A stretch of 64,000 nucleotides of DNA from Diphasiastrum complanatum (lineage: Eukaryota > Streptophyta > Lycopodiopsida > Lycopodiales > Lycopodiaceae), in assembly GCA_029204225.1 (NCBI GenBank), contig CM055098.1, forward strand, positions 21,551,097-21,615,096. The letters are read 5' to 3'. The notes below the pieces were generated by a model that did no database searches, had not been told where the DNA came from, and saw only the letters and a list, made by a program, of their open reading frames with translations. Each line of letters begins with the position of its first letter. Positions within the stretch are counted from its first letter, which is position 1. Made by a program: the position numbers and the translations under genes. Below, piece by piece: positions 24,801 through 59,417 of the stretch.

Positions 24801-27242
24801 GGGACCTGAAGTCTAACTTCTGTTTAGATCTGGTTCTGGTCAGCTCTTTCCTCTATGCACCCTATTCCATCTAACTTGACTTGTTTAAGAAGATCCTTTT
24901 TATAGTGGTTCTTGGCTGCTTTTATCAATAGCAAACCACATTTGAAGACCTGGTGTGGGTTAAAATGTTCCAACATCATTGGTTGTTTTAGGTATCTGAG
25001 GCGATGAATTCTTCACTTATGTGTCCTTCACATTGAGGCAGATGCATTTTACTTTATTTTTCAAAAGAATCCTCAGGCATTTAGAGTTTAGGAGGTTAGT
25101 CTCCAAAATACAATTATGCATCATCTGGCTTATGTTGCGCTGTTTCTTACATACATAGATCTGTCAACAGAGTGTATTTGATTGTAGCTAGTATGATTTG
25201 GTTCAGGCAGCAGATGTTGCAGAGGCGAAACGCATGAAGCAATTTCATGCAAATGTTGAGTTGCTGCGAGAACAACTTGAGAGTGAAACACAACGAGCAA
25301 ATAGGACTGAAGCAGCTCTAGCTGATCATGTAGATTTGCAGTTGCGAGTGAAAAGCTTAGAGACTGAATTAGAAGCTTGGAAAGAGATTCTTAATGAGCT
25401 TCCAGATGTTCAATGTCGGGCAGATGTGCCTCGAAAAATGGCTGAGCTTCAAAGGTGATTTTCCTGCATAGATTTGACATGTTATATATAGCACCTAATA
25501 ATGCTTGCCTGCAATATGAAGATTAGAGATGCTGCAAGATTTTAGGCACAGTAAACAAAATAATTACAGTTTGAGCTAGAGTCGTATTTTTGATCAAGGT
25601 CATTGAGTAGGGGAGTAGTACTCTTAGTCACCTTTTCTACTTCTTTTTAGCCATGTATCTGATTTGATTTTTATTTGTAATTTGCTATGAGGAGGCCTTT
25701 CAAGTTGATTTGATTAAAAAAATCGTCATTTGCAAAGGTTTGTAAGACTTGTTGTATGCAGCTTTCCTTACAAATCTACGTAATGAATGGAGTGAGGCTC
25801 CACTCGGAGGTGAGCTCTGCCAAGTTTTAGCATATTATGCTGTGTCATACCCACTTTGTGGAATCCATGAAGCCAAAACATTACTGCTCTATTGTGATCA
25901 CACATACCATAGCCAAGCTCTATTGGACCATTTTGTAGATTGCAGTAAGCTCAGAAGCATAGGCTAGGCGTCTACGTGCTTTGGGACAGGCTGGTTTGAG
26001 GAAACAATTCTCCACTGCGGACCATGTTTTTACTCTCTAGACACTTATGAAGGAATTGAAACAATCGGAAGAAATGGGTTTACTACTGTTTTGTTGACTT
26101 TTGACGATCCTTTGACTCTATTCCGTGCCACATGCTTATTTTAAGGATGTGGGAGTTGCACTTTCTAGCAGATACTATACTTGCATTCATGGCACCATGT
26201 TGGGATGTTTTCGATCTTAGGTGGGTCTCTTAGACATGATCACTAGTACTATTGGAGTGAAATAAGGGTGCATGCTCTCTGCTACCTCGCTCGATCTTTA
26301 AATTGATGAGCTTAAGCTAGCTATCAGACAAGATGGTGCTAGGGCTGCTTTTTTTTTGAGATCTTCTTCTAGCATGACATTGTTTTGCCTCTTGTTCCAG
26401 TGGATTGCAGCGACACAGAGAGAGATTTAGAGGTCAATGTTTAGAAGACTAGGATTATGCTCTTCAATATATTGAGATCATACATGCGGTGACATGCCTT
26501 CGTACTGGATGGTCAACCATTGGAGATAGTTTCATCTTATTATACCTATTCGGGAGTACTTTTTGCGGGTCCTAATTTTACCATGAAACAGGCAACTACT
26601 AGTAGATTAGGGAAGGGTCAATCCTTCGGACTTCCTGGTTATTATGGAGCGGTTATATTTCAGGAGTCATGTTCGAGACACATTGAGTGAGTGTCACCTT
26701 TTTGACATTTTGGTTATTCCCATGACTATGTAGAGGTAGTGAAGGCGTGGTGCGCTAGTCTCTTGGAATTTGATTGAATTCCCCTCTACTGTCTACAGAT
26801 TTCAATGATATCATGTATGATACATGGAAAGTCCTCAGTCTAACACTATATCATCCTTTGCTTCTTGCTCACTATGTTCTCCTTCATTTGTAACTCTTCA
26901 AAACAACAATATTCGAGCTAGAAGAACATCGTGACCTTTTATCAAGCCTCAACTATTATCTATATTTTGCACTGTGTTTGGAATCAATTAAAGTTTGTCC
27001 CATTTAGCTCTCGGTTTTGTGAATGGTTTTCTTTGTACACTGTTGTTGCTAAAGATCAAAGTTGACAGTAGATTCATCAAGGACATGAGGGAGAGAGAAC
27101 ACACAATCCTTATTGGAAAAAATAATATGTAGCTAGAAACTTGTCATCAAGACATGTGGCGCATGTGAGTTCAAACTCGAGTTAGGCAAGAATAGTAGTC
27201 AAGAATGTTGTGAGGGAGGTAGGTGACACGTGGTAGGCAAGG

Positions 27243-36300: not shown

Positions 36301-38172
36301 ATCTCTGTCCAAACCAATATCCTGGCCCACAATACGAGTCCATATATAGCGGGCCTTCATGTCTGATGAAATCAAGAGTCGAATGGAGAGACTCCTGTAT
36401 AAGCATGCAACCCCTCCTGAACCACGGCCACTGGCAGATCTACACGTCGGAATACTGAGTCCCATTTGTATTTGGGAAAAGAAGGAAGTCCTCGCTCTGG
36501 ACTCTCATGTGTCTCCATAAAGAATAATATATCTCGGCCATTAATAAAGTCAACTAGGTCCCTTGCAGTAGAAGATGAGTGTATGCCAGCACAATTTCAC
36601 ACTCCAATCATAAGGTGGTGTGGATGGGGTCCCGGGGTGCTCCCAAACGCGGGAACCCCAAATCCCTAACTATGAGAACCATCATGAGTGCTATCAAAAT
36701 GGCACACTCGTCCATCTCTGTATATAATTCGTCTGCCTGACTCCTGAGCATCCTGAAAGGCCTTACGCCTCTCCTCCACTTGAATATAAGTAAGATCATC
36801 ATCCATAAACATGGTGGAGCCACGGAGCATAGCTCTACATCGTAAAGTGTCCCGTCTAGTCTCCAAGGAAGTAAAATGGATGATCAACGTGGTTGTATAC
36901 CTAGTAGTCCTCCATGCCGTGTCCAACCCATCTGTCCGTTGTCCTAGTGTGGTATCCAAAAAGCGCTTCGCCTTTGCTATGACATCCTGTGTGTCAGGAA
37001 TCCCTCTGACCCTAATGTTGGGAGCGTTTTGCTCCCAGGATTTCTCTTCCTGGATCGTGGCTGAAATGACTGACGTAATGCGAGCACTTGGTTTAGTACC
37101 TTTCTTCAATATCGATGCCCAAAAAAGGGCTTCTTCCTTTTGCTGCTCAATCTTTTGTTCCAATGCTTTTATCATAGTGGTGTGGTAGACTCGGAGGTTG
37201 AAATCTGTGATTGTTTGTTCCAAATGTGTAATCTTGGACTACATCATATTCCTTTCTTTAATCAGCGTTGCGACCATTTCTTTCAACTGCAGAAGTTCCA
37301 TTTTCATGTTTTGGAAATCAGCTTTGAACTGATCTTCTTGGCAAGATGAGAACAGGTCGGTAGATCTTGATGGAGTATAGGCGATGGATACCGATTCTTG
37401 AGTGGAAGAAGAAGAGGAAAAAACAGTTGGTGGTTTAGGAATCCGAACGAGTCCCGCAATAGGATCAGATGGCTGAGAGGGAAGGCCAGAAGACAAGTTG
37501 AGGGCAGAAGAGGCAGAGGAGGCGGTGGCTGCCACGCAGGCAGCCTGCGTGGCAGGCAGGTCCGCTCAGGCTGATGCGGAGAGAAGAAGAAGAAGAAGCT
37601 TTATTAACGTCTTTTCCATGCCAAAAGGCGTATAAGACGAACAAGTACATCAGATAAAGTGGAGCCCAGACGGAGCAATGCCGTCAAACAACATAACTAA
37701 AACCAAAACTAACTAAGAAGAGGATAATGTCTAGGATTATATGGTACGAAGACCATTTACAGATTCAGCTGGCATCTCTTCAGTGCTCTAACTCTCTCAC
37801 TAACTCTGAACAATCTCATATATCTCATTAATAGCAACAGGTTTAATATCTACAAAACGAATGATACCATCCCTATAGATCAACCGCTTTCCATTCGTTA
37901 GAGCCTCCTGTTTTGCTTTTTTCCGTTCTTGAACCTAAATGAAAGTAAGGTCTTCATCCAAGTATATCGTGGTGCCCCGCAAAGTAGATCTCTTCCCTAG
38001 CACTTCATGACGACCAGTTGCAGATGCAAAGCGTATGACAAGAGTACCTGGATCTTTCTTAGGCCGCCATGCAATATCCATATCTTTGTGGTGGTGTTGA
38101 AGACTCTCTTCAAGAAACTTTTTAGCTTCACCAACAGCATCATGGGAGTTCGTAATACCTCTGACTCGGACA

Positions 38173-38252
<80 letters not shown>

Positions 38253-41200
38253 CAGAATTAGAATTAGAATTATTATTATTAACGTCTTTTGGTACCCAAA
38301 CGTACATAAGACAAAAGAGAGTACAAAAGGTGAGGAGCATTGTCCGCATACGGACTTATTTACTAGTAGAAAAGAGAAGAAGACAAGAAACTAGCATATC
38401 TATCTCGCTATCTCTAAGAAGAAGAGATATCCAAGCTTGACCACCAGCTTGCGAGGGTACAATGCAAGAGCTTAACCACCTGCTCTGCGGAGGAGACTAG
38501 CTATGAGTAAGCTGAAAATAGTGAGTGATAGTAGAAGTGGAGCGTGCTGTGGATTGGCGAGAAGCCCGTGAAGATCTAGTGATCCTGGATCTAGCAGAAA
38601 TATGTGAGACTTTCTGTGTCTTCGATCTCCGAGTGGGGACTTCAAAATCCAAAACGGTAATGTCCTCTCTGTCTCGCTTCTGGAAAAACTGGGTAATATG
38701 AGCCTGGCCGTGATCCATATCTGTGGCAGGTAGAAGTGAGGCTCGTAGAGTATACATCTCTCTCAATAGAAGACCTACACATCTGGAGTCTGGATATTCG
38801 AGGAACGATCGCAACGTGAGAGGGGTATCTTTGTATAAACAATGGTAACGGCCCCTGATCTCGTAATATATTGGACAGCGAAAGATGAAATGGAACTCAT
38901 CCTCCATCTCATGAAGAGAACAAAGCTGACATATCCTCTGCAACCTGTCAGTGTCCATGTATCTACCCGTCTCAATAGCCAGCTGATGAGAAGAAACTCG
39001 GAGCTGTCCCATACGGTATTGCAGACCAAAAGATAATGGCTGTGTAAGATATGCTGGAAGGACAGGGGTACCCGTAGTATCCAATAGATGTGTGCCATAG
39101 AAATGTATCTTGACCTTATCAGGGTCGGGCTGTGACCATATAGTGCGTATGTAGCTACGATAAATATGCTGTCTGATATAAGCATGAGTCCCGCTCGAAA
39201 GATCAAGTACAAATAAGCCCCAAGTCCGAAGAAGGGCTGAGACACTGCCAAACCAAGAATGCTTGGCCCCCTGTCCAGCAATGGTGCGTGATGAAGTGAG
39301 AGCAGCAACAATATATCTGGAAGTGTCTAACTCTGATATCCTGTGAAGAAAGGTAATGATCTGAAACATAGCACCGATAACCAGGAGTGGGGAAGCAAAC
39401 TCCACTAATATGATATCATGTGGCACCGAGGGCTTAGCCCTAATCATCCTGCTAAGCATGAGAATCTGGATACGAGTAAGATGCCTCCAAGTATCACGTA
39501 ATAAATCCGGACACCAAGTCTTAGCAGAGTATAAAACAACCGGGGAGACAGTGGTAGAAAATAGTAAGCATCTGGGAGCAGGGTCCTGTACATAATATGT
39601 GGAGCAGAATCTCTCCATATGAACAAGAGAAGTGTGCCCCTTACGGAGTCTGGTGAGGGCTGCCGGTCGGAATGTGAGTAGCGGACCAGAGAAAAGTACT
39701 CCCAAATAAGTGTAAGAGGTCACAATCTCAGTCGGCAGCCCATCATGATAGAAGGTCACATCTCTCATATGCTGTCTATTGGTGTTGAACACCATAATCT
39801 TGGTCTTCTTAGTATTAACCGTCAATCCCCAAAGCTGACAGAAGTGATGTAAAGCAGAGAGGTGTCTCTGTAAGCCAGCTGCAGAGGATGAGAGAAGAAC
39901 CACATCATCAGCGTATAGGAGAATGGGGATAATAATATCTGCTAAGGGACAGCCCTCTCCACCTTCCTCTTGAATAATCCGCTTGAGGTCATCAGTATAT
40001 AGTGCAAAGAGAGTAGGAGATAAGGGGCAGCCCTGCTTCACTCCAATGGTAGAATGGATCAACGAGGACCAACCACTACCGTCCCTAAACCGCGCCCAAA
40101 CTCGCTCATACAAAGTAATGATTGCGGCAATAGTCTCGTCTGTGAAGCCAAGCAAAGATAATCTCTGGAAAAGGTGTCTCGGAACTGAGTCAAAAGCTTT
40201 GCGGAAGTCCACAAAGCAACAATAAACTCTCTGTCTTTGATGTCGTGCCTCCTCAATGATGCATCACAAAATGAAAATCTGATCTGAGGTAGAGTATCCT
40301 GGTCTGAACCCAGCCTGACCCATAGCATGTAAATTCTCAGTCTCAGCAAAAGATCCAGTAACCGTCTGTAAAATGGAACCATAAACCTTAGCCAAAGCTA
40401 AAGAATCGGTCAACCTTTGGCAGAGTAATCGTAGGTATGTTATCTTCTTTGTTCTGGTGGCTTTACGATATTTTTTTTGGTGTTGTTTGAGTGTTGTAGG
40501 GGAGTGTAATCTGGCATTTGCCACATGTTTGTGAAGAGAACGACATTCTGCATCATACCAACGGTTGTGAACACGTCTATGAGATGATATCGTCTTGGTG
40601 GGGAAAGATGAGGACGCTGCAGATAAGAGGGATTTAGAGAGAAAAGTGGCTTGTTGCTCAACTGATGTCGTGAAAGGGAAATGAGTAAGTAGTTGGGATA
40701 GGGTTGTGTTGTAGTTGGCGAGTCCAGAGTAAGTAAAAGGAACACGTTTATTAGTAGAAGAGGAGCGTGGAACTTTAGAAGACGGGGTTATGTGACCCAG
40801 TGAGAGGCGTAGGAGTGAGTGATCAGAGATGGTAGGAGGTGTAATGGAGAAATCAGAGATGTGAGGGATCAAAGCAGGTGATCCAATAAAGTAGTCAACT
40901 ACACTATGTCCTCCACCATGAGGATAACATGTAAACGCTGATGAGGAAGGCCACTGTGTGAGGCCATTCAAGATGGCCAGAGAATGTGTCTCCGTAAGAG
41001 TAGTCAACTGCTCTCCAAAAGATGTAACTGAAGTGTGTGCATCCTGTGATACTTGATCAAATCCCATATCCAGAGGATGAAGCCGAAGAACGTTAGTATC
41101 TGCATGAAATTCTGTCTGTCTGGAGCTAGTACGGGCGTTGAAATCTCCTGCTAATAAAATGTAGCCCTGCTGAGAAAAAACAGCAATATCATCTGAGAGT

Positions 41201-42804
41201 GCCTGAAATGGGTCCCCACCAAATTCAGCAAACGCCGAAGTCTGTGGAGCGAAGTAACATACAGCCATATAAATTTCCTGCAGTAATCCCAATAATGAAC
41301 CAATAGTATGTAGCCAAATATATCGAGCATACTGATCTTGCTTAACCATCTTAACTGCCGTGGCTCTGTATAAACAAGCTACTCCGCCAGATCCACGACA
41401 AGTTTTACCCCTCACAAATGGGCGAAAAACAGAATGCCAAGAGTAATTCTGTATATGTGGAAGAGGATGATATAAGGACTCATGGGTTTCAGCCAACAAC
41501 AAAATGTCACATTTGCTTATAGAATCAGCAAAATCTCCTGCCGATGATGATGATAAAAAACCATTGCAATTCCAGAAGCCAAGTCTCAAAATGGTGGGGG
41601 ATTTCGGGCAGCTCCTAAACCCGGGAGCCCCAAGTTCCTAGCGTGAGAGGAGGTCGAAATATCTTGGTTTGCCGTCGATAAAAACGACCCTTTGCCCTTT
41701 TTCTTTTGGTTTGTAAATAATCTTTTTCCTTGCTAACCATTGGGTATTTGTCAAATCATCATCCATATAAATGAAAGTGCCCTTGAGTTTTGTTCTAAGC
41801 CGAAGGGCTGCATTGCGGTGTTGAAGAGAGCGAAATTTGACAAAAAGAACGTTGTCATCAAATTTACTACGCCATGCTGTATCAAAACCATCAACAACAT
41901 GAGAGAACTTGGAAACGAGTAAATCTGTAGCTTCGTCTATTGGTTTACCGCCGTTGGCAATGCCTCTTACTGTAATATTGAGAGATATACATTTTCTTGC
42001 TCAAGCTGCTCCACCCTCTCTTAGACACTTACGAGATCCATAACCAACTTGCCATTCGCCATTTCAAAAAAGTGTAGTTGTTTCTTAAGGCTGATAATTT
42101 CGTTTCGGATGAAACCAATATCATAGGCATAAAGACTCTCAATAGGCTTGGAAGGAGTGTAATCGACCGTGGCTTGCTTTGCCGTTTCTGTGACATCAAG
42201 TATAGTGTCGGTGAAAATGGAGCCTTCGAGTGCTTCCTTCATTGCTGTAGGTGAAATAACATCCCCGGCCATTGTAGAAGGTGGGGGAGGAGAAGAGATG
42301 GATAGAGGGGGGGGTGTTGGGGTACTCCCCTTTTTCTTAGGTGCCATGTGTGAAGGCAGGATGTAGAAAGGACAGGAAATGTCAAGAGAACATCAAGGAC
42401 AACAAAGCAACACCTGGTTAGAAGGTGAGCATGTCTGCAGTCAGTACCTCAGGGCAAGGCAGCACCTGGTCAGAGGGGGCCAGCAGCGCTCCTGCAATCA
42501 GGAGATCAACGGGCTAGTAGATGCTAGCATCTGGTGCAGGGGTCAACCGGGGTCCGGGCAGCATCAGTCAGCGTGCACTTGAGCAGCGCTACCTGCTCAG
42601 ACCATCGCAACTTCTGCGCCCAGCTCAGATCAGAGCCCAGGTCCCGCTCCTAGGTCCCGTTTTGAGCAGCGCTCCTTAGATCAGCGCTCCAGATCCTGCT
42701 CAGACCATCGCAACTTCTACGCCCAGCTCAGATCAGAGCCCAGGTCCCGCTCCTAGGTCCCGTTCTGAGCAGCGCTCCTCAGATCAGCGCTCCAGACCAT
42801 CGCT

Positions 42805-42850
<46 letters not shown>

Positions 42851-45800
42851 TTATCAATGTCCTTGAAATACCCTACTGTACATAGGACTAAGAAAAGGTA
42901 CATGTCAAGTATGCACAATAGGAGCTTTTAAAGCTCAACTAGCTGAAAGAAACAATAGTTGCAAAATCGAAAACTGAGTATAATGAGATGGCTGGCTTAG
43001 TCGAAGTTTATCATCTTGATATAGTAGATGTCCATCAGCCTGAAAAAAAGTGGTGTATAGTGTGTTGTAAAACTGTTGTTGAATGTGCTGCGGACCTCTA
43101 TCTCCGAGTGGACCATCAGTGTCATCTCTGTTGCCATGGAGCTCTGGGATGTGGCCTAGGCACTGGCTGTCTCTCTTGGCGTTGACGCTGTCTCTACCGT
43201 CTGTGTATGGAAGCATATGGAATCTTAGCTTCTCCATCGAAGTCACTACTCAAGGTTACCTCCTGTCTCTGTCTCCGACGGGATATGCACTCTCGGGTAG
43301 TCCTAATGCGAAGTGAGTCTGCAATGTCATGAAATACTGGCTGACAGGAGGATGTTCTGGCATTAAAATCACCAGTCAATATAATATGACCACACTTTGA
43401 ATAACGAAGGATATCGGAAGAAAGATCCGCATATGGAGAATTCATACAATCAACAAAAGTAGATGTCTCAGGAGGAAAGTAACAAATGGCTATAAAAGTA
43501 TCCTTGTCCAATCCAAGGCTCTGACCAATGAGGTGAGGCGAATCCAAAGATAGCACGCATGCTCATCTTGGCTGACTGACTGAAGGACCGACAGTAAAGA
43601 TTCCCGATATAGACATGCAACCCCACCTGAACCTCTGCTACTCATGACCCGTGTCTCTGCCCTAAATGCTGAGTACCATCTAAATCCAGAAAATTCTGGT
43701 CGTCCCCTCAAGGAGCTCTCATGTGTCTCAGTGAAAAATAGAATGTCTCCATGTGTAATGAAATCCGAAAATCACCAGCTGTCGAAGATGAGTGTATCCC
43801 ATTACAATTCCAAACACCTATACGCAATGGAGAAGGTAATGGATGGGGGCTCGGGGTGCTCCCATGCCCGGGCCCCCCAACTACCTAGTATGACTTGGCA
43901 TCAATGTATTTAACCTGTCCATCTCTATAAATAGCAATTCTGTCCTGCTCACGAGCTTCATGAAAAGCTCTTCGACATTCTTCCACCTAAATAAAGGTAA
44001 GGTCATCATCCAAGTAAATTTTGGTACCCTTGAGTTTGGATTTAAGATGGAGTATTGATCTGCATTCTTCCAACGATGTGAAAGGAATGACAAGCGTGGC
44101 ATTATCTTTCTTTGGACGCCAAACTTTATCGATTCCATTGCTATGATGGGACAGCGTAGTGTGCTTCTTGTAATGCATTTTGGGTGTCGGGAATGCCACG
44201 GACTCTAACATTATGCATTTTTTGTTCTCTTAATTTTTCTTCCGATAAAGTGGCAGCAATGAAACTCGAATGTGGTTACCTTTGTTGCCGTTTTTGAGGA
44301 GTGATGCCCACGTTTTGGTAGATTCCTTGTGTTGGGTTAGCTCTTGGGAGGGATCCTTGTATGAGGATCGGTGATATCTGAGGAAGGATAAGCCGTAGGA
44401 ATAGGAACCAGGGATAGGGAGGGATCAGGGTTAGGAGTAGGCACGGGCCCCTGCTGTCCAGCAGCAGCAGATCCAACCTGCTGCTGGGGGCAGCAGGGAA
44501 CACCTGTTGCGCAGTAGCAGGTACATCCTGTTGCTGCACAGCAGGGGGAGGGGTGGTGGGAAAGGAGGGAGGGGTGGCGGGAGAGGGAGGAAGGGTGGAG
44601 GAGGAGGAGGTAGTAGGGGAAAGGTGGGGGGAGCGTGGGCTCCCCCGTATCTTCTTTTTTGCCATAGAGGAAGGAGAGGGAGATGGAGGGGAGGAGGGGG
44701 AGGGGGAGGGGGAGGGGGAGGGGGCGAGAGAGGCAATGGGGGCTAGGGAGAGCTAGCGCTGGAGCAGCCATTGCTGCAGGAGGGAGGAGCAGCCATCGCT
44801 GGAGGAGGGAGAGAAAGAAAGAAAGAAAGAAAGAAAGCTTTATTAACGTCTTTTCCACTCCAAAAGGTGTATAAGACGAAAAGGAGTGCAACAGAGTAAA
44901 TGGAACTCGGACGGGACAATGCCGTCAACAGACAACTAAACTAAAACGTAAATCGCTCTGCAAAAAAAAAGCTCATCTCTCACGCAGGAGAGGAAGTAAA
45001 TGACCGTAGCTCAAAGCATCTCTCACTTAGGAGAGGGAGAAGAATCTGAAATTTTAAGTTTTGCAATTTTAAGCAAGAACGGACGTCCGTTTCGAAAGAG
45101 AGCCCGGAAACCGTTGGCCTTAGCATCTGCGATAGTTTTCTTTCTCTTAGTCCATTGAATGGGCGTCAAGTCTTCATCCATAAAAATAGTAGATCCCTTC
45201 AGGCAATTGTAGAACCTTTTGGTGAAGCAATGCATCCTTGAAACGTAGAAACACTGTGGTGGATTGGAGCTTACCCACCCAAGCAGTAGATATGACATCC
45301 TCTTTGAGACCAAAGGTGGAATGAATGAAAGCATTTGCCTCAGCCACGAGATCCTTACCCACAAAAGAAGCTCCCCTAACCCTGGCATTGAGGGCCTTGA
45401 AATCTCTTTTTTGATGTTCTTGAATAGATTCAGAAATAACCTGCTTAGATCCCTTGAGCACGTCGGCCCAAGAACTCTTCGATTGCTGAAATTGCTGCTC
45501 CAATGAGTGAACCCGCTCTTGAAGCTACTTTGCCACGTCTTGAATCTGCATTGTCGCTTCCTTCTTCTTCCTCTTCATCTAATTCCAATTCATTCTTGAG
45601 GTAAGTAACATCAACCTCAAGAATGCCAACTTTGCCTTGGAGGACCAAAACCGTATTCTCCAGAGTGGAGATTTGGAATGCTTGTTGCTCGATTAACGCA
45701 AGCAAGGATACATTGGTCCCTTGAAGAGACTCAATAATATGGGGGAAACTAGACAAAAATTCAGCTGAAAGAGATGGAGACAAACTAGACAAAAATTCAG

Positions 45801-53046: not shown

Positions 53047-53149
<103 letters not shown>

Positions 53150-53507: not shown

Positions 53508-54503
53508 ATGGCTCCATGCAACAAACGAGGGGGAGGTAACTCCCCCCACTCTCCACCATGCCCTACTTTGGGAGACCCAGAAAACACCCCCCTGTCCCTC
53601 ACATCTGAGTTTTTGGTACCTGCTCCTGCCATCGTACCTGTTTTAAGTGTATCCACCGCATCCACTTCTGATCTGTCCACCGCATCTGCATCGGAATCCA
53701 AGACGGATGCTCGCCCTGTTGTCGAAACATTTGCAGTTAATCAATTGCCCACAGTCGATTATACCCCCTCCAAACCTACTGAAGGCCTTTTTGCTTTTGA
53801 CATCAGCTTTATTCGACAAGAAATCATCGGACTCAAAAGACAATTACACTCTTTTGAAATTGAGAACGGCAAGCTGATTTTGGATCTCTGTGGGGTTAAA
53901 AAGCGAATGGAGTAGCTTGAACAAGAAAATGTATATCTTAAGCAACAGATTGTGGAACATATCCCTCAAAAGAATATATTGGAGGAGACGTCGAACAAAA
54001 TATCCAGCCTTGAGAAATAAGTGGAAGAAACGAAGACATGGGTAGCGCGTCTCACAATCGATGGTAAGGTCGGATCTTCAAGCTCGGTTCAACATGCAGT
54101 TATGAATTCTACACTAGAAGATGTCTTCTCCGAGCAAGAAAGAAGGGCTAAAAAAGCCTTTAATATCCGGGTTAGGGGGATTTCCGACGGGGATAAGCCC
54201 ATTGAAGAGGCAAAAGACCTCCTTTAAACTAAGCTCACACACACCACGGATGGATTTGATACAGCTTGGAGAAGTAAGTTTGACACTAATGTCTTGTTTA
54301 TCAAGTTTCGCTCTATGAACAGCCGCAACGCAGCTTTACGCCTTAGAGCCAAATTGAAAGGGACTTTTATTTTTATGGATGATGACCTTACACACACACA
54401 ATGGCAAGCCAGGAAACAAATTGTCCAGGATGCAAATGCAAGAAATCAGCGGTTGGTTTTTATTGAAGGCAAACCAAAATTTTTTGATAAAATTTCTCAA
54501 TAG
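53508..54503 (+). pseudogene. LINE P1 ORF1 (L1 ORF1p-like), three premature stops
   Basis: MAPCNKRGGGNSPHSPPCPT, a Ser/Thr-rich region, [20 protein letters not shown], a long coiled coil ([33 protein letters not shown]), then RRM ([39 protein letters not shown]) and CTD (IFMDDDLTHTQWQARKQIV; LVFIEGKPKFFDKIS). All in one frame, broken by TAG 53913, TAA 54018 and TAA 54225. At least the first fits C-to-T decay of CAG. The final TAG (54501-54503) is shared with the other copies. Confidence 0.85.
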
Positions 54504-54539
54504 GGATTTGGAGCTCTTGGGCAAAGGAGCAGCCCAAGA
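54501..54539 (+). promoter_or_regulatory. In-frame UAG and downstream stem-loop, LINE P1
   Basis: TAG followed by GGA. After 11 nt, TCTTGGGC (54515-54522) pairs perfectly with GCCCAAGA (54532-54539); loop aaaggagca. ORF2 continues in the same frame, and its first ATG (54621) lies after the endonuclease Asn motif. Confidence 0.62.
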
Positions 54540-57500
54540 TCCCCTCAGCCTTTACATATTGGTTTTTGGAATTGTAATGGCATACTATCATCTTCTTCAG
54601 CAGGTGACTTCCATTCTTTCATGCTGAAATGTGATATCCTTTTGTTAGCAGAGACTCATGAATCCTTATATAGACCGCTCCCATCCATACAGGATTGCAC
54701 TTGGCACTCAGCGCATCGGCCCTTTGTGAGAGGGAAGACCTCCCGTGGTTCTGGTGGTGTTGCTTGTCTCACCAAGGATGTTTTCAGTTCTCATTTTAAA
54801 CTGGTCAAAAGTGATCCATTTGCACGCTTTATTTGGTTTCAGTTCTCTGGTCACTGTTACCTCTTTCTTGCAGTTTGTTACTTTGCACCACAGACATCAT
54901 CTTTTGCAGATTTTGGTGGTGACCCTTTCCAGGCTCTCTCAGATGATATATTCAGCTTTGCAAAGCGAGGCCTTATTCTTTTAGCAGGGGATTTTAATGC
55001 TCGTACGAGCATCAGGCAAGCTGAGTTTTATGCAGAGAGTGATTTTCTACAGGTTCGCACATTAGATATGGGCTTTGACAGGACCTCACAGGATGCAGAT
55101 ACTCCAGCTACCCACTTTGGAGAGCGGCTGATTGGTTTAGCAGAGGCCCATTCCTTAATTATTTTGAATGGCCTTCCTTACTGGCCTTCGTCATATCATT
55201 TTACTTGTCACCCACATGGAGGAGGACATAGTGTTGTTGACTACTTCATTGGGTCACCGGCTTTGATCCCATTTCTTCATACCTTTCGCATTATACCTCC
55301 TACCATTTCAGATCACTCCCTCCTACTTCTATCCCTTGGTCATCATAGTACCACAGTCACAACACACCGTCCCACTCATCACCATCGCCCGGTTTTCTCT
55401 CCATCTGGTTTCCTCCTTTACACCGAGTCCCTAGTTACTTTTCTCCAAGACTTCCCCTTCACCTCCTCAGTTGACCAACAAGCTATCTTTTTATCTCAGT
55501 CTCTTTTGCAATCTGCCAATACTACCTATCCTTCGAAAACCTTTCCTTCGCATAAACGCACTCACAACAAATGGTATGATATAGAGTGCTTCTCATTGCA
55601 TAAACAAGTTGTATATGCTAGATACCACTCTCCTCACATTCTAGCCTTGAAACAAAGAGAATATCACAAAGTGACTCTGAAAAAAAAGACAGCTTATCTC
55701 CAATCCTTGGGACAAAAACTTGTTGATGCTATTGCCTCCCCATCCTCCCATTTCTTTTGGCGGATGTTCTCTAAAAACCCTTATAAACCCGCTCCTATTG
55801 CTATTGAATCATGGATAAATTATGCTACTAAGCTTTATACAGTTGACTCTCTTTCCACTTCTCTTTCCCCACGCCCTTCAGAATTCACCCTCTTTACCCC
55901 GTCCATGGTTGAAAACGCCATCCAAATTGGTCAAACCCAAAAAGCCACTGATGTTGACCTCCTAAGTATGGACTTCCTAAAACCAGTTGCTCACATTATT
56001 GCCCCATACATATCCCATATCTTTAACCAATCTGTCATCTTCGGTCTCCCCACATCGTGGTGCAACAACCTTTTACACCCTATCCTCAAAGCCGGGGATC
56101 CTTTGATTGTCGACAACTACCGCACTATTATGATCAGTCATACTATGGCCAAGCTATATGGATCCGTTTTACAGTCTATTGTCAGCTCACGAGCAGAGAC
56201 AGAAGGGTTACATGCTATGGGACAGGCAGGTTTTCGCGCTGGCTACTCCACGGCTGACCATATATTTATCTTGAGATGCATTATTGAGGAGGCTAAGTTC
56301 AGGAAGCAAAGGGTTTATTGTTGCTTTGTGGATTTCCGCAAAGCCTTTGATTATGTTCCGAGACACCTTTTACTCCAGCGCTTAGCATTGCTTGGCTTTT
56401 CTCAGGAGATCATTGCTGCTATCATCACATTGTATGAGAGAGTGTTGGCCCGTTTTCTAGATGGTGATGGATGGTCCTCTTACATTCATAGTACAGTGGG
56501 AGTTAAGCAGGGATGTCCTTTGTCCCCTACTCTCTTTGCTCTATATATTGATGATCTTGAGCGGATTATTAGGGAGGAGGGTGGAGATGGCTGTCCGTTA
56601 GCAGATATGATTATCCCTATTCTACTATATGCGGATGACGTGATACTTCTATCGAGATCCGCATCTGGGCTTCAGCAGCACCTTGATGCTTTATATACTT
56701 TCTGCCACACATGGGGTTTGATGGTGAACATTGGTAAGACTAAGGTCATGGTGTTCAACACCAATCGACAGCATATGAGAGACACAGTGTTCTACTATGA
56801 TGGGCTTCCACTGGAGATAGTAGCCTCTTATACTTACTTAGGTGTCCTTTTTACTGGTCCATTGCGCACTTTTAGACCAGCTGCACTGTCTAGGCTCCGC
56901 AAGGGGCACTCTGCTCTTGTCCAGATGGAGAGGTTTTCCTCTATTTACTATGTACATGATCCTAATACACGCTGTCGCCTTTTTTCTGTCACTGTCTCTC
57001 CGGTGGCTCTATATTCAGCAGAGACATGGTGTCCTGGCTTGTCCAGAGATACTTGGAGTGATATTTCACGTTTGCAGATCCTTATGCTTAGCCGGATGAT
57101 CCGTGCGAAGCAATCAGTTCCCCATGATATCATACCGGCAGAGTTTGCCTCACCACCACTGATTGTCGAGGCTTTATTTCGGATTATCACATTCATTCAT
57201 AGAGTCTCGGAGCTTGATTCATCCAGATATGTTGCTACAGCTTTCACATCCTCTCATACTCTAGCTAGTCATCAGGCTAAGTCCTCATGGTTTCAGTGTG
57301 TTTCTGACCTTTTGAGTAGGTGGGGTTTATCTATATCTGATCTCCCGAACGGGACACACGCATATATCCGCCAGCAGATTTACAGAGCTTATATCAGCAC
57401 AGTGTGGTCTCACCCAGATCCAGCACGGGTCAAGCTTCATTTTTATCACACTCATCTTCTTCAGTTGGATGTTTCCGGGCTTCCCATTTGACCGGGTTAT

Positions 57501-58376: not shown

Positions 58377-59376
58377 ATGGCAAGAAAAACTAGGGGGAGC
58401 CCTTGCTCCCCCACCCCTACCATCGCTCCTCCTGCTGCCGCCCCACTTGCTACTCCACCTGTGGCTCCACCTGTTGCCGCCCTACTTGCTGCCCCACCTG
58501 CTCCGCCTACTGCTCCACCTGCCCCTGCCCCTCCACCTGCTGCCGCCCAACGTGTCTCTAGGACAGCTGCCTCACCTACTTCCACAGTCACCGCTCCACC
58601 TGCCGTCCCACCTGCCTATGCATCATCTGCTGCCCCACCTGCTGCCCAACCTCCTGTTGGCCAAGCCCACCCTCCTGTTGTTGCACAGCAGGCCCCCTCT
58701 CTCCCTCTCCTCGCCTCCCACCCTGGCCCTCCTTCACCCCCTGTCCTCCCTATCCCTTCGACTCCCATCTCTACCATCGCTGCCCTAGACACGCCCTTCT
58801 TATCACATGCTGACTACACCACCTCCAAATCCTTCGAAAATTTCCTAGCCTACCGACTGAATGAGCTGACAGCAGACGTCCAAGCCTTGAAATTGGAAGT
58901 CATCCACCTACACACAGAGAACCAACAGCTTCGGACAGAAATGGATAACAAACACGCTTCCCAGCCGCAAAAAGAGACAATGACGAAGCTACAAGATCTG
59001 GAACAGCAACTGAGCCAACAGAAAGAATTGACCAAATCATGGGCTTCCATCCTCACCAAAGACAAAGGTACCAGCCCACCTTGGACAGCTGATGGAGGAA
59101 GTAAGTCTGCCCCCTTCTCATCTTTCATTTCGTACTAAAAAAGACACCACTACTTTGATCCTCCGCTTTATGTCACATACGTATCGGAAAGAAACCTTGA
59201 GAAAGAGAGCCAAATTGAAAGACACCAAAATATTCATGGATGATGACCTCACCTATATCCAATTTGAAGAGAGACGTCAAGCATTCCAAACCACCAAAGC
59301 TACCGGAAGATGGGTGATCTATCGTGATGGAGTTGTTTGGTACCTCGATGGTACTACATCCGGAAACAGCCTATAG
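58377..59376 (+). pseudogene. LINE P2 ORF1
   Basis: MARKTRGSPCSPTPTIAPP (compare M3 [13 protein letters not shown]), an Ala/Pro-rich N terminus of over 100 residues, ADYTTSKSFENFLAYRLNEL, a coiled coil (LEQQLSQQKELTKSWASIL), then a deletion/frameshift near 59100 and the CTD ([33 protein letters not shown]) ending in TAG. Confidence 0.75.
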
Positions 59377-59417
59377 GAAATTGGGGTACCCGGGCATGGG
59401 CGCATCCCGGGAGCCCC
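59374..59417 (+). promoter_or_regulatory. In-frame UAG and downstream stem-loop, LINE P2
   Basis: TAG followed by GAA. After 6 nt, GGGG plus CCCGGG (59383-59394) pairs with CCCGGG plus CCCC (59406-59417), with an A.A mismatch and a U-G pair between the blocks; loop CATGGGCGCAT. ORF2 (HLGVWNC) follows in frame. Confidence 0.62.

Follow-up and report, generated by a model that had tools for sequence, protein, structure and literature searches.

In five LINE families of the clubmoss Diphasiastrum complanatum (P1, P2, M3, M4 and M6) and in a single copy of a sixth, ORF1 and ORF2 lie in one frame on the two sides of a UAG codon, and programmed readthrough of this UAG, promoted by a type III-like signal, is probably the best explanation for the expression of ORF2. 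Readthrough is favoured because the in-frame UAG is followed by a purine, a constrained, predicted hairpin begins after a 6-nt spacer, and the young families have no usable AUG. The same interpretation had been proposed in a first-pass annotation of the window, a stretch of 64,000 nucleotides, and it is supported at the sequence level by the retention of UAG and frame, the lack of an AUG in the young families and a strong synonymous constraint.

The window, part of a 1.74 Gb genome, is a nest of LINE copies with many relatives of P1 ORF2 or ORF1 on both strands (Table 1). A more distant LINE reverse transcriptase, 34–39% identical to P1, lies at 25879-26855 (+). Genome queries of 451 bp spanning each border (371 bp for P2) returned 883 first-look candidates for P1, 902 for M4, 2123 for M3, 2700 for M6 and 733 for P2, numbers that are not copy counts because 40 candidates per family were scored. 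Borders were read at 30 of the 40 scored loci in both P1 and M4, the window copy included in each, and, besides the window copies, at 30 (M3), 25 (M6) and 20 (P2) of 39 scored loci. The M3, M6 and P2 copies of the window were added, as were two borders encountered incidentally, a sixth-family copy in locus L130 and an M4-like copy in L133, which brought the total to 140 borders. These are not a random sample because they were chosen by similarity to the window copies. All 140 come from one genome and all families share descent. Over the query, the scored P1 and M4 copies were 96–98% and 95–97% identical to the window copy, respectively, and probable duplicates of one insertion occur among the loci (e.g., L010/L011, L013/L014 and L019/L020).

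Table 1. Features of the LINE copies in the window (positions count from its first letter).
Feature	Position	Strand	Remarks
P1 ORF1	53508..54500	+	331 codons in intact copies; in-frame stops here
P1 UAG between ORF1 and ORF2	54501..54503	+	UAG in 28/30 P1 copies
P1 ORF2, endonuclease and reverse transcriptase	54504..57491	+	ORF1 frame; first in-frame AUG at +120, after WNCNG
P1 hairpin	54510..54544	+	Lower stem GGAG/CCCC, upper stem CTTGGGC/GCCCAAG, 9-nt loop AAAGGAGCA
P2 UAG	59374..59376	+	UAG in 19/21 P2 copies
P2 hairpin	59383..59417	+	GGGG, CCCGGG/CCCGGG, CCCC
M3 UAG	43885..43887	-	UAG in 29/31 M3 copies
M3 hairpin	43845..43878	-	Predicted, after UAG
M4 UAG	41638..41640	-	UAG in 31/31 M4 copies
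M4 ORF2, endonuclease part	40264..41637	-	ORF1 frame; first in-frame AUG at +291, after Asn and Glu motifs
M4 hairpin	41597..41631	-	C.A mismatch in upper stem of common haplotype; alternative fold
M6 UAG	36666..36668	-	UAG in 25/26 M6 copies
M6 hairpin	36626..36659	-	Predicted, after UAG
M5 3′ end, ORF1-only LINE	37740..38110	-	ORF1 end UAG-UGA, no ORF2, no GC-rich hairpin
Second ORF1-only LINE family, 3′ end	44900..45202	-	ORF1 end UGA, no ORF2, no GC-rich hairpin

The border stop was UAG in 133 of the 140 borders, counting the five families and the one sixth-family copy; the other seven carried UAA (one), UCG (one), CAG (three), UGG (one) and UAC (one). The base 3′ of the stop was G in 137/140 and A in 3/140. 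Direct reading of the five window borders agreed with the first-pass annotation: ORF1 stops at UAG and the frame continues to the endonuclease, the next triplet being GGA in P1 and M6, GAA in P2 and M4, and GTA in M3. The same triplets predominate across the copies, and the expectation that genome-wide copies would keep UAG and frame also held in the copies read. In the window copies, the post-UAG peptide runs to (F/V)WNCNG, a motif of the endonuclease, either intact or decayed. Within the Asn motif, TGGAAY lay at a distance from UAG of 66 nt in 29/30 P1 and 25/30 M4 copies, 75 nt in 14/20 M3 copies and 69 nt in 17/20 M6 copies; these distances are unequal, yet every one is a multiple of three. 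Other lengths were found in five M3 copies (74, 68 or 61 nt) and one M6 copy (8 nt), and TGGAAY was unmatched in one P1, five M4, one M3 and two M6 copies. A stop within 25 codons past UAG was met in 1/30 P1, 5/30 M4, 9/30 M3, 1/25 M6 and 0/20 P2 copies, as expected if some copies are decayed. Inside families UAG was not better kept than other codons (rank 1 to 76 of 103), which is likewise expected under decay after insertion. The CAG (Gln) codons stand in L074 and L075 of the M3 family and L119 of the P2 family, where they would fuse ORF1 to ORF2 outright; L074 and L075 resemble copies of one duplication.

Between −60 and +75, no in-frame AUG was found in 30 P1 or 30 M4 copies, and within this interval none of the 60 copies had, in the ORF2 frame, a SART1-like AUG overlapping or adjoining the stop. 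ORF2 has its first in-frame AUG at codon 40 past UAG in 27/30 P1 copies and at codon 97 in 25/30 M4 copies, beyond the Asn motif in P1 and beyond both the Asn and Glu (AETHES) motifs in M4. These motifs are catalytic in LINE endonucleases. In these two young families, any start of ORF2 at an AUG would lose the Asn motif, and what had been noted for single copies, that the first ATG of P1 follows this motif and that M4 has none before it, is borne out across the copies read. An in-frame AUG within the same interval was present in 3/20 fetched M3 and 2/20 fetched M6 copies, and the window M6 copy carries one at +57, upstream of its broken Asn motif.

ORF1 was open to the same UAG in 6/30 P1 copies (331 codons) and 4/30 M4 copies (332 codons), and the window P1 ORF1 contains at least three in-frame stops within its last 200 codons. 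With 995 open codons, P1 ORF2 matches PF03372 and PF00078 above the Pfam cut-off, corresponding to an APE-type endonuclease and a reverse transcriptase; its nearest solved chains by sequence are R2 and LINE-1 ORF2. Pfam matches of ORF1 were all below threshold and mostly to coiled-coil entries. A model of the ORF1 relative P0029 (mean pLDDT 60.5, built with three sequences) displayed a helix at 51–138, then an RRM-like succession of elements (beta-alpha-beta-beta-alpha-beta) and lastly a CTD-like part, and human LINE-1 ORF1p filled ranks 1–8 among solved structures (E 4e-5 to 5e-4, TM 0.2–0.3). ORF1 is therefore likely to resemble human L1 ORF1p (coiled coil-RRM-CTD), a grading kept at this level because the P0029 model is weak.

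Over the 14 codons past UAG, identical residues used the same codon in 64/68 comparisons between families (ten family pairs), against 177/480 in the endonuclease just downstream; the former count is from common haplotypes and the latter from one copy per family, giving a slight bias toward 64/68, and the pairs are non-independent. For P1 and M4 alone, the counts were 9/9 and 20/62 (Fisher one-sided 1.3e-4; the test was applied to three of the ten pairs and to the pool), and in a protein-guided comparison of these two families the codon identity at identical residues was 0.88 in codons 1–15, compared with 0.44 across ORF1 and 0.45 over the remainder of ORF2. For P1a, P1b, M3, M6 and P2, between 0 and 2 of 1500 random synonymous recodings of the peptide were equally stable, and for M4 19/1500 were; with GC3-matched recoding the fractions were 0.0007 to 0.075, the value of M4 (0.075) being not significant. 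The codon-level comparison indicates a constraint on the nucleic acid of the post-UAG hairpin. High codon identity also occurs outside the hairpin: in the P1–M4 comparison, ORF1 windows with their first codon between −199 and −188 reach 0.91, against 0.89 in the best windows at the border. This stretch of P1 ORF1 (53907-53950, codons about −198 to −185), nearly identical in codons to M4, has constraint, gene conversion and inter-family recombination as candidate explanations. A conservation peak about 300 codons into ORF2 was rejected as an artefact of a gappy letter-wise nucleotide alignment and was gone in the protein-guided scan.

The families share a common layout of UAG, 6 nt, GGGG, 2 nt, a 7-nt arm, a 9-nt loop, a 7-nt arm, 1–2 nt and CCCC. 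The loop reads nnRGGAGCn in most copies, as the GGAGC noted earlier in the window copies would predict, and GGGCGC in part of P2. The earlier description of the spacer needs splitting: about 6 nt stands for the families generally, and the 11 nt of P1 is private to the window copy, whose lower stem begins with GGAG where 28/30 P1 copies have GGGG at 6 nt past UAG. The upper stem is CTCGGGC/GCCCGAG or CTTGGGC/GCCCAAG in P1, CCCGGGG/CCCCGGG in M6, CCCGGG/CCCGGG in M3 and P2, and CCCGGGT/GCCCGAG with one C.A in M4. In an alternative fold of P1 and M4, the loop GGAGC pairs with GCUC(C), with GCUCC in the commonest M4 haplotype. The M4 stem, already described as the weaker one, indeed combines the mismatch in its commonest haplotype with this alternative fold and the weakest recoding result. 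Fold z-scores were weak for the single window copies (−0.7 to −2.5) and reached −1.6 to −3.5 for the commonest family haplotypes, common P1 haplotypes being 7–9 kcal/mol more stable than the window P1 copy. The border ranks among the most stable 44-nt segments of ORF2: counting the border itself, 3/982 such segments in the window P1 copy and 5/444 in M4 were at least as stable, and one of the five in M4 folds better. No H-type pseudoknot at the border and no pairing partner for the loop GGAGC were found by eye, and a search of 54400-54700 gave no Rfam match up to E 1.

Covariation was assessed on 76 distinct haplotypes representing 119 of 124 copies, the indel copies L078, L080, L085, L086 and L094 having been dropped. 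Pairing was kept in 735/836 cells, a value reached by 0/500 column shuffles (mean 717), and in a slide control of 103 copies the paired fraction was 0.887 in register and between 0.685 and 0.294 at shifts of 1 to 4 in one direction. Changes on both sides occurred in 3/11 pairs and extra pair types numbered 11, neither in excess of the shuffles (476/500 and 477/500 reached them, respectively); covariation is supportive and not decisive because these two measures lie within the shuffles. The first-pass statement that stem bases vary while pairing is kept stands for the pairing, which exceeds all 500 shuffles; the both-side changes do not exceed them. Between families, the changes fall at pairs 2, 3 and 7 (U-A/C-G at 2 and 3; C-G, U.G and G-C at 7), and the broken pairs are pair 2 in M4 (C.A) and pair 7 in M3 and P2. 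One pair has different bases on both sides in the two main P1 haplotypes (9/30 and 8/30 copies), with a G.U intermediate in three copies; either side of this change could be attributable to CpG decay, and a few of the copies are probably duplicates.

Two families in the window consist of ORF1 only and are a natural control for the hairpin. M5 is an abundant, young family of about 1.55 kb elements with a CT-repeat tail, with scored copies 94–99% identical and 1260 first-look candidates (loci L132, L133 and L134). We take it to resemble mammalian HAL1. Elements of the second family measure about 1.6 kb and also have a CT-repeat 3′ end (loci L129, L130 and L131). The ORF1 ends read were UAG-UGA for M5 (window, L132 and L133) and UGA for the second family (window and L129), and the 47 nt from the ORF1 stop fold weakly, at −5.7 kcal/mol in M5 and −6.1 kcal/mol in the second family. 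Among the borders read, UAG with the hairpin is present only where ORF2 follows. In L129 and L132, the 3′ ends of the ORF1-only elements are long CT repeats with no poly(A), and a CT tract at 53050-53134, on the 5′ side of P1, may be the tail left by another element that precedes it.

These results suggest a pathway in which ORF2, carrying the endonuclease and the reverse transcriptase, would arise by extending ORF1 at its C terminus. The hairpin, placed at the entry of the ribosome, would disturb termination by eRF1/eRF3, and a near-cognate tRNA would then decode UAG in a minority of passages, presumably as Gln, as reported for MuLV. The hairpin loop may in addition pair with a putative second site. 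The expected output is much free ORF1 protein and little ORF1–ORF2 fusion, comparable to retroviral Gag and Gag-Pol. With somewhat more reserve, we lean toward a broader evolutionary reading, in which a plant LINE lineage retained a type III-like UAG readthrough hairpin while it split into at least five families, making ORF1–ORF2 fusions at a set ratio, a Gag/Gag-Pol economy like that of retroviruses within a non-LTR element. Under this lineage reading, readthrough might be adjusted by the alternative hairpins of P1 and M4, in which GGAGC is either unpaired or bound to GCUC(C), and ORF1-only families would have tandem stops or another stop where the leaky one stands elsewhere.

The main rival is termination at UAG followed by reinitiation at a non-AUG codon, in which the downstream structure would help ribosomes to restart at a near-cognate codon before the endonuclease. 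SART1 provides a precedent, being a non-LTR element whose ORF2 expression at a stop-start site requires structure 3′ of the ORF1 stop (PMC5972666, in the text available), and in-frame AUU, UUG or GUG codons were seen by eye shortly upstream of the Asn motif. SART1, however, restarts at an overlapping UAAUG according to the same text, and the 60 P1 and M4 copies have no in-frame AUG in the interval read. A restart would not require a common frame, yet the UAG–TGGAAY offsets are all multiples of three; moreover, the codons directly past UAG are open and encode similar peptides, and no near-cognate codon common to all families was seen by eye. Reinitiation is accordingly considered unlikely.

It is less probable still that the hairpin serves another RNA function, such as packaging, ORF1p binding, export or an IRES, with ORF2 translated independently. 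The data demonstrate constraint on the nucleic acid, and readthrough is what we infer; besides, ORF1 may be an RNA-binding protein like L1 ORF1p. Against such a function, the hairpin stands 6 nt past the stop in every family and was not seen where ORF1 closes in the two ORF1-only families, which likewise need copying machinery. Chance, with the hairpin a by-product of a linker encoded by GGG/CCC codons and the UAG inherited without function, is very improbable. The linker is indeed Gly/Pro-rich, the raw z-scores of single copies are weak, the both-side changes lie within the shuffles and the families are related by descent. Nevertheless, such stability is rare under synonymous recoding, codon conservation far exceeds that of the flanking endonuclease, and ORF2 would otherwise be without a start codon.

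Readthrough itself is already known from retroviruses and plant RNA viruses, and a LINE that relies on it would be new. In the accessible parts of two papers, viral type III signals combine UAG, a 3′ G and a structure typically about 8 nt downstream (PMC3542737), with UAG-GGR in Tombusviridae, UAG-GUA in luteo- and poleroviruses, and UAG-G plus a pseudoknot in gammaretroviruses (PMC3542737, PMC4178896). As excerpted there, MuLV Gag-Pol likewise has two ORFs in the same frame across UAG-G with a structure close 3′, joining a structural protein to a reverse transcriptase; MuLV uses an 8-nt spacer and a compact pseudoknot, whereas the clubmoss LINEs have 6 nt, a predicted hairpin with an internal loop and no LTRs. 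The likeness to retroviral signals drawn by the first-pass annotation thus stands for UAG, the 3′ G and, as predicted, a nearby structure and does not extend to the spacer, which is 6 and not 8 nt, or to a pseudoknot, which was not seen by eye. Plant viruses of type III share UAG with a G-starting triplet and a 3′-proximal sequence or stem-loop (PMC3542737, as far as excerpted), but involve a long-range partner, for which the clubmoss LINEs showed no counterpart by eye.

Other retroelements reach ORF2 by different routes, described here from the portions available of each source. Human L1 shares an ORF2 with endonuclease and reverse transcriptase and probably the coiled coil-RRM-CTD form of ORF1, but its ORF2 lies past a 63-nt spacer and its own AUG is reached unconventionally (PMC5972666). 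L1Tc 2A and HeT-A are also non-LTR elements with unusual translation, for which the text available describes StopGo and frameshifting and no stop-codon readthrough (PMC5972666, PMC5009743). Poplar Celine is a two-ORF plant LINE with a proposed non-canonical route to ORF2; unlike the clubmoss families, its ORFs overlap, its ORF1 carries DUF4283, and reinitiation or an IRES was suggested (PMC11288735). Tca2 is a cautionary case, in which a gag/pol UGA with a possible pseudoknot displayed no junction readthrough in yeast (PMC2194720, in the part available). No LINE whose ORF2 is reached from ORF1 by stop-codon readthrough appeared among the best matches in the open literature, a weak negative since subscription papers lie mostly outside it; the earlier remark that no plant LINE had been described in this way agrees with the open-literature matches listed.

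How LINEs translate a second ORF into small amounts of ORF2 protein is a long-standing open question. If the readthrough interpretation is true, a viral and retroviral strategy would extend to non-LTR elements, and an ORF1–ORF2 fusion protein would be implied in target-primed reverse transcription. The border is a compact candidate for a plant readthrough cassette that can be tested in reporters, for which the ORF1-only sister families offer a natural comparison.

Protein searches found relatives of ORF2 in Riccia sorocarpa and in an ENA protein, and a D. complanatum protein was among the matches of ORF1. In the R. sorocarpa gene model P0002, an ORF1-RRM-like N-terminus is, by eye, joined to the endonuclease start GYWNVRGL with no Met between, and this gene model may skip a similar ORF1/ORF2 border.
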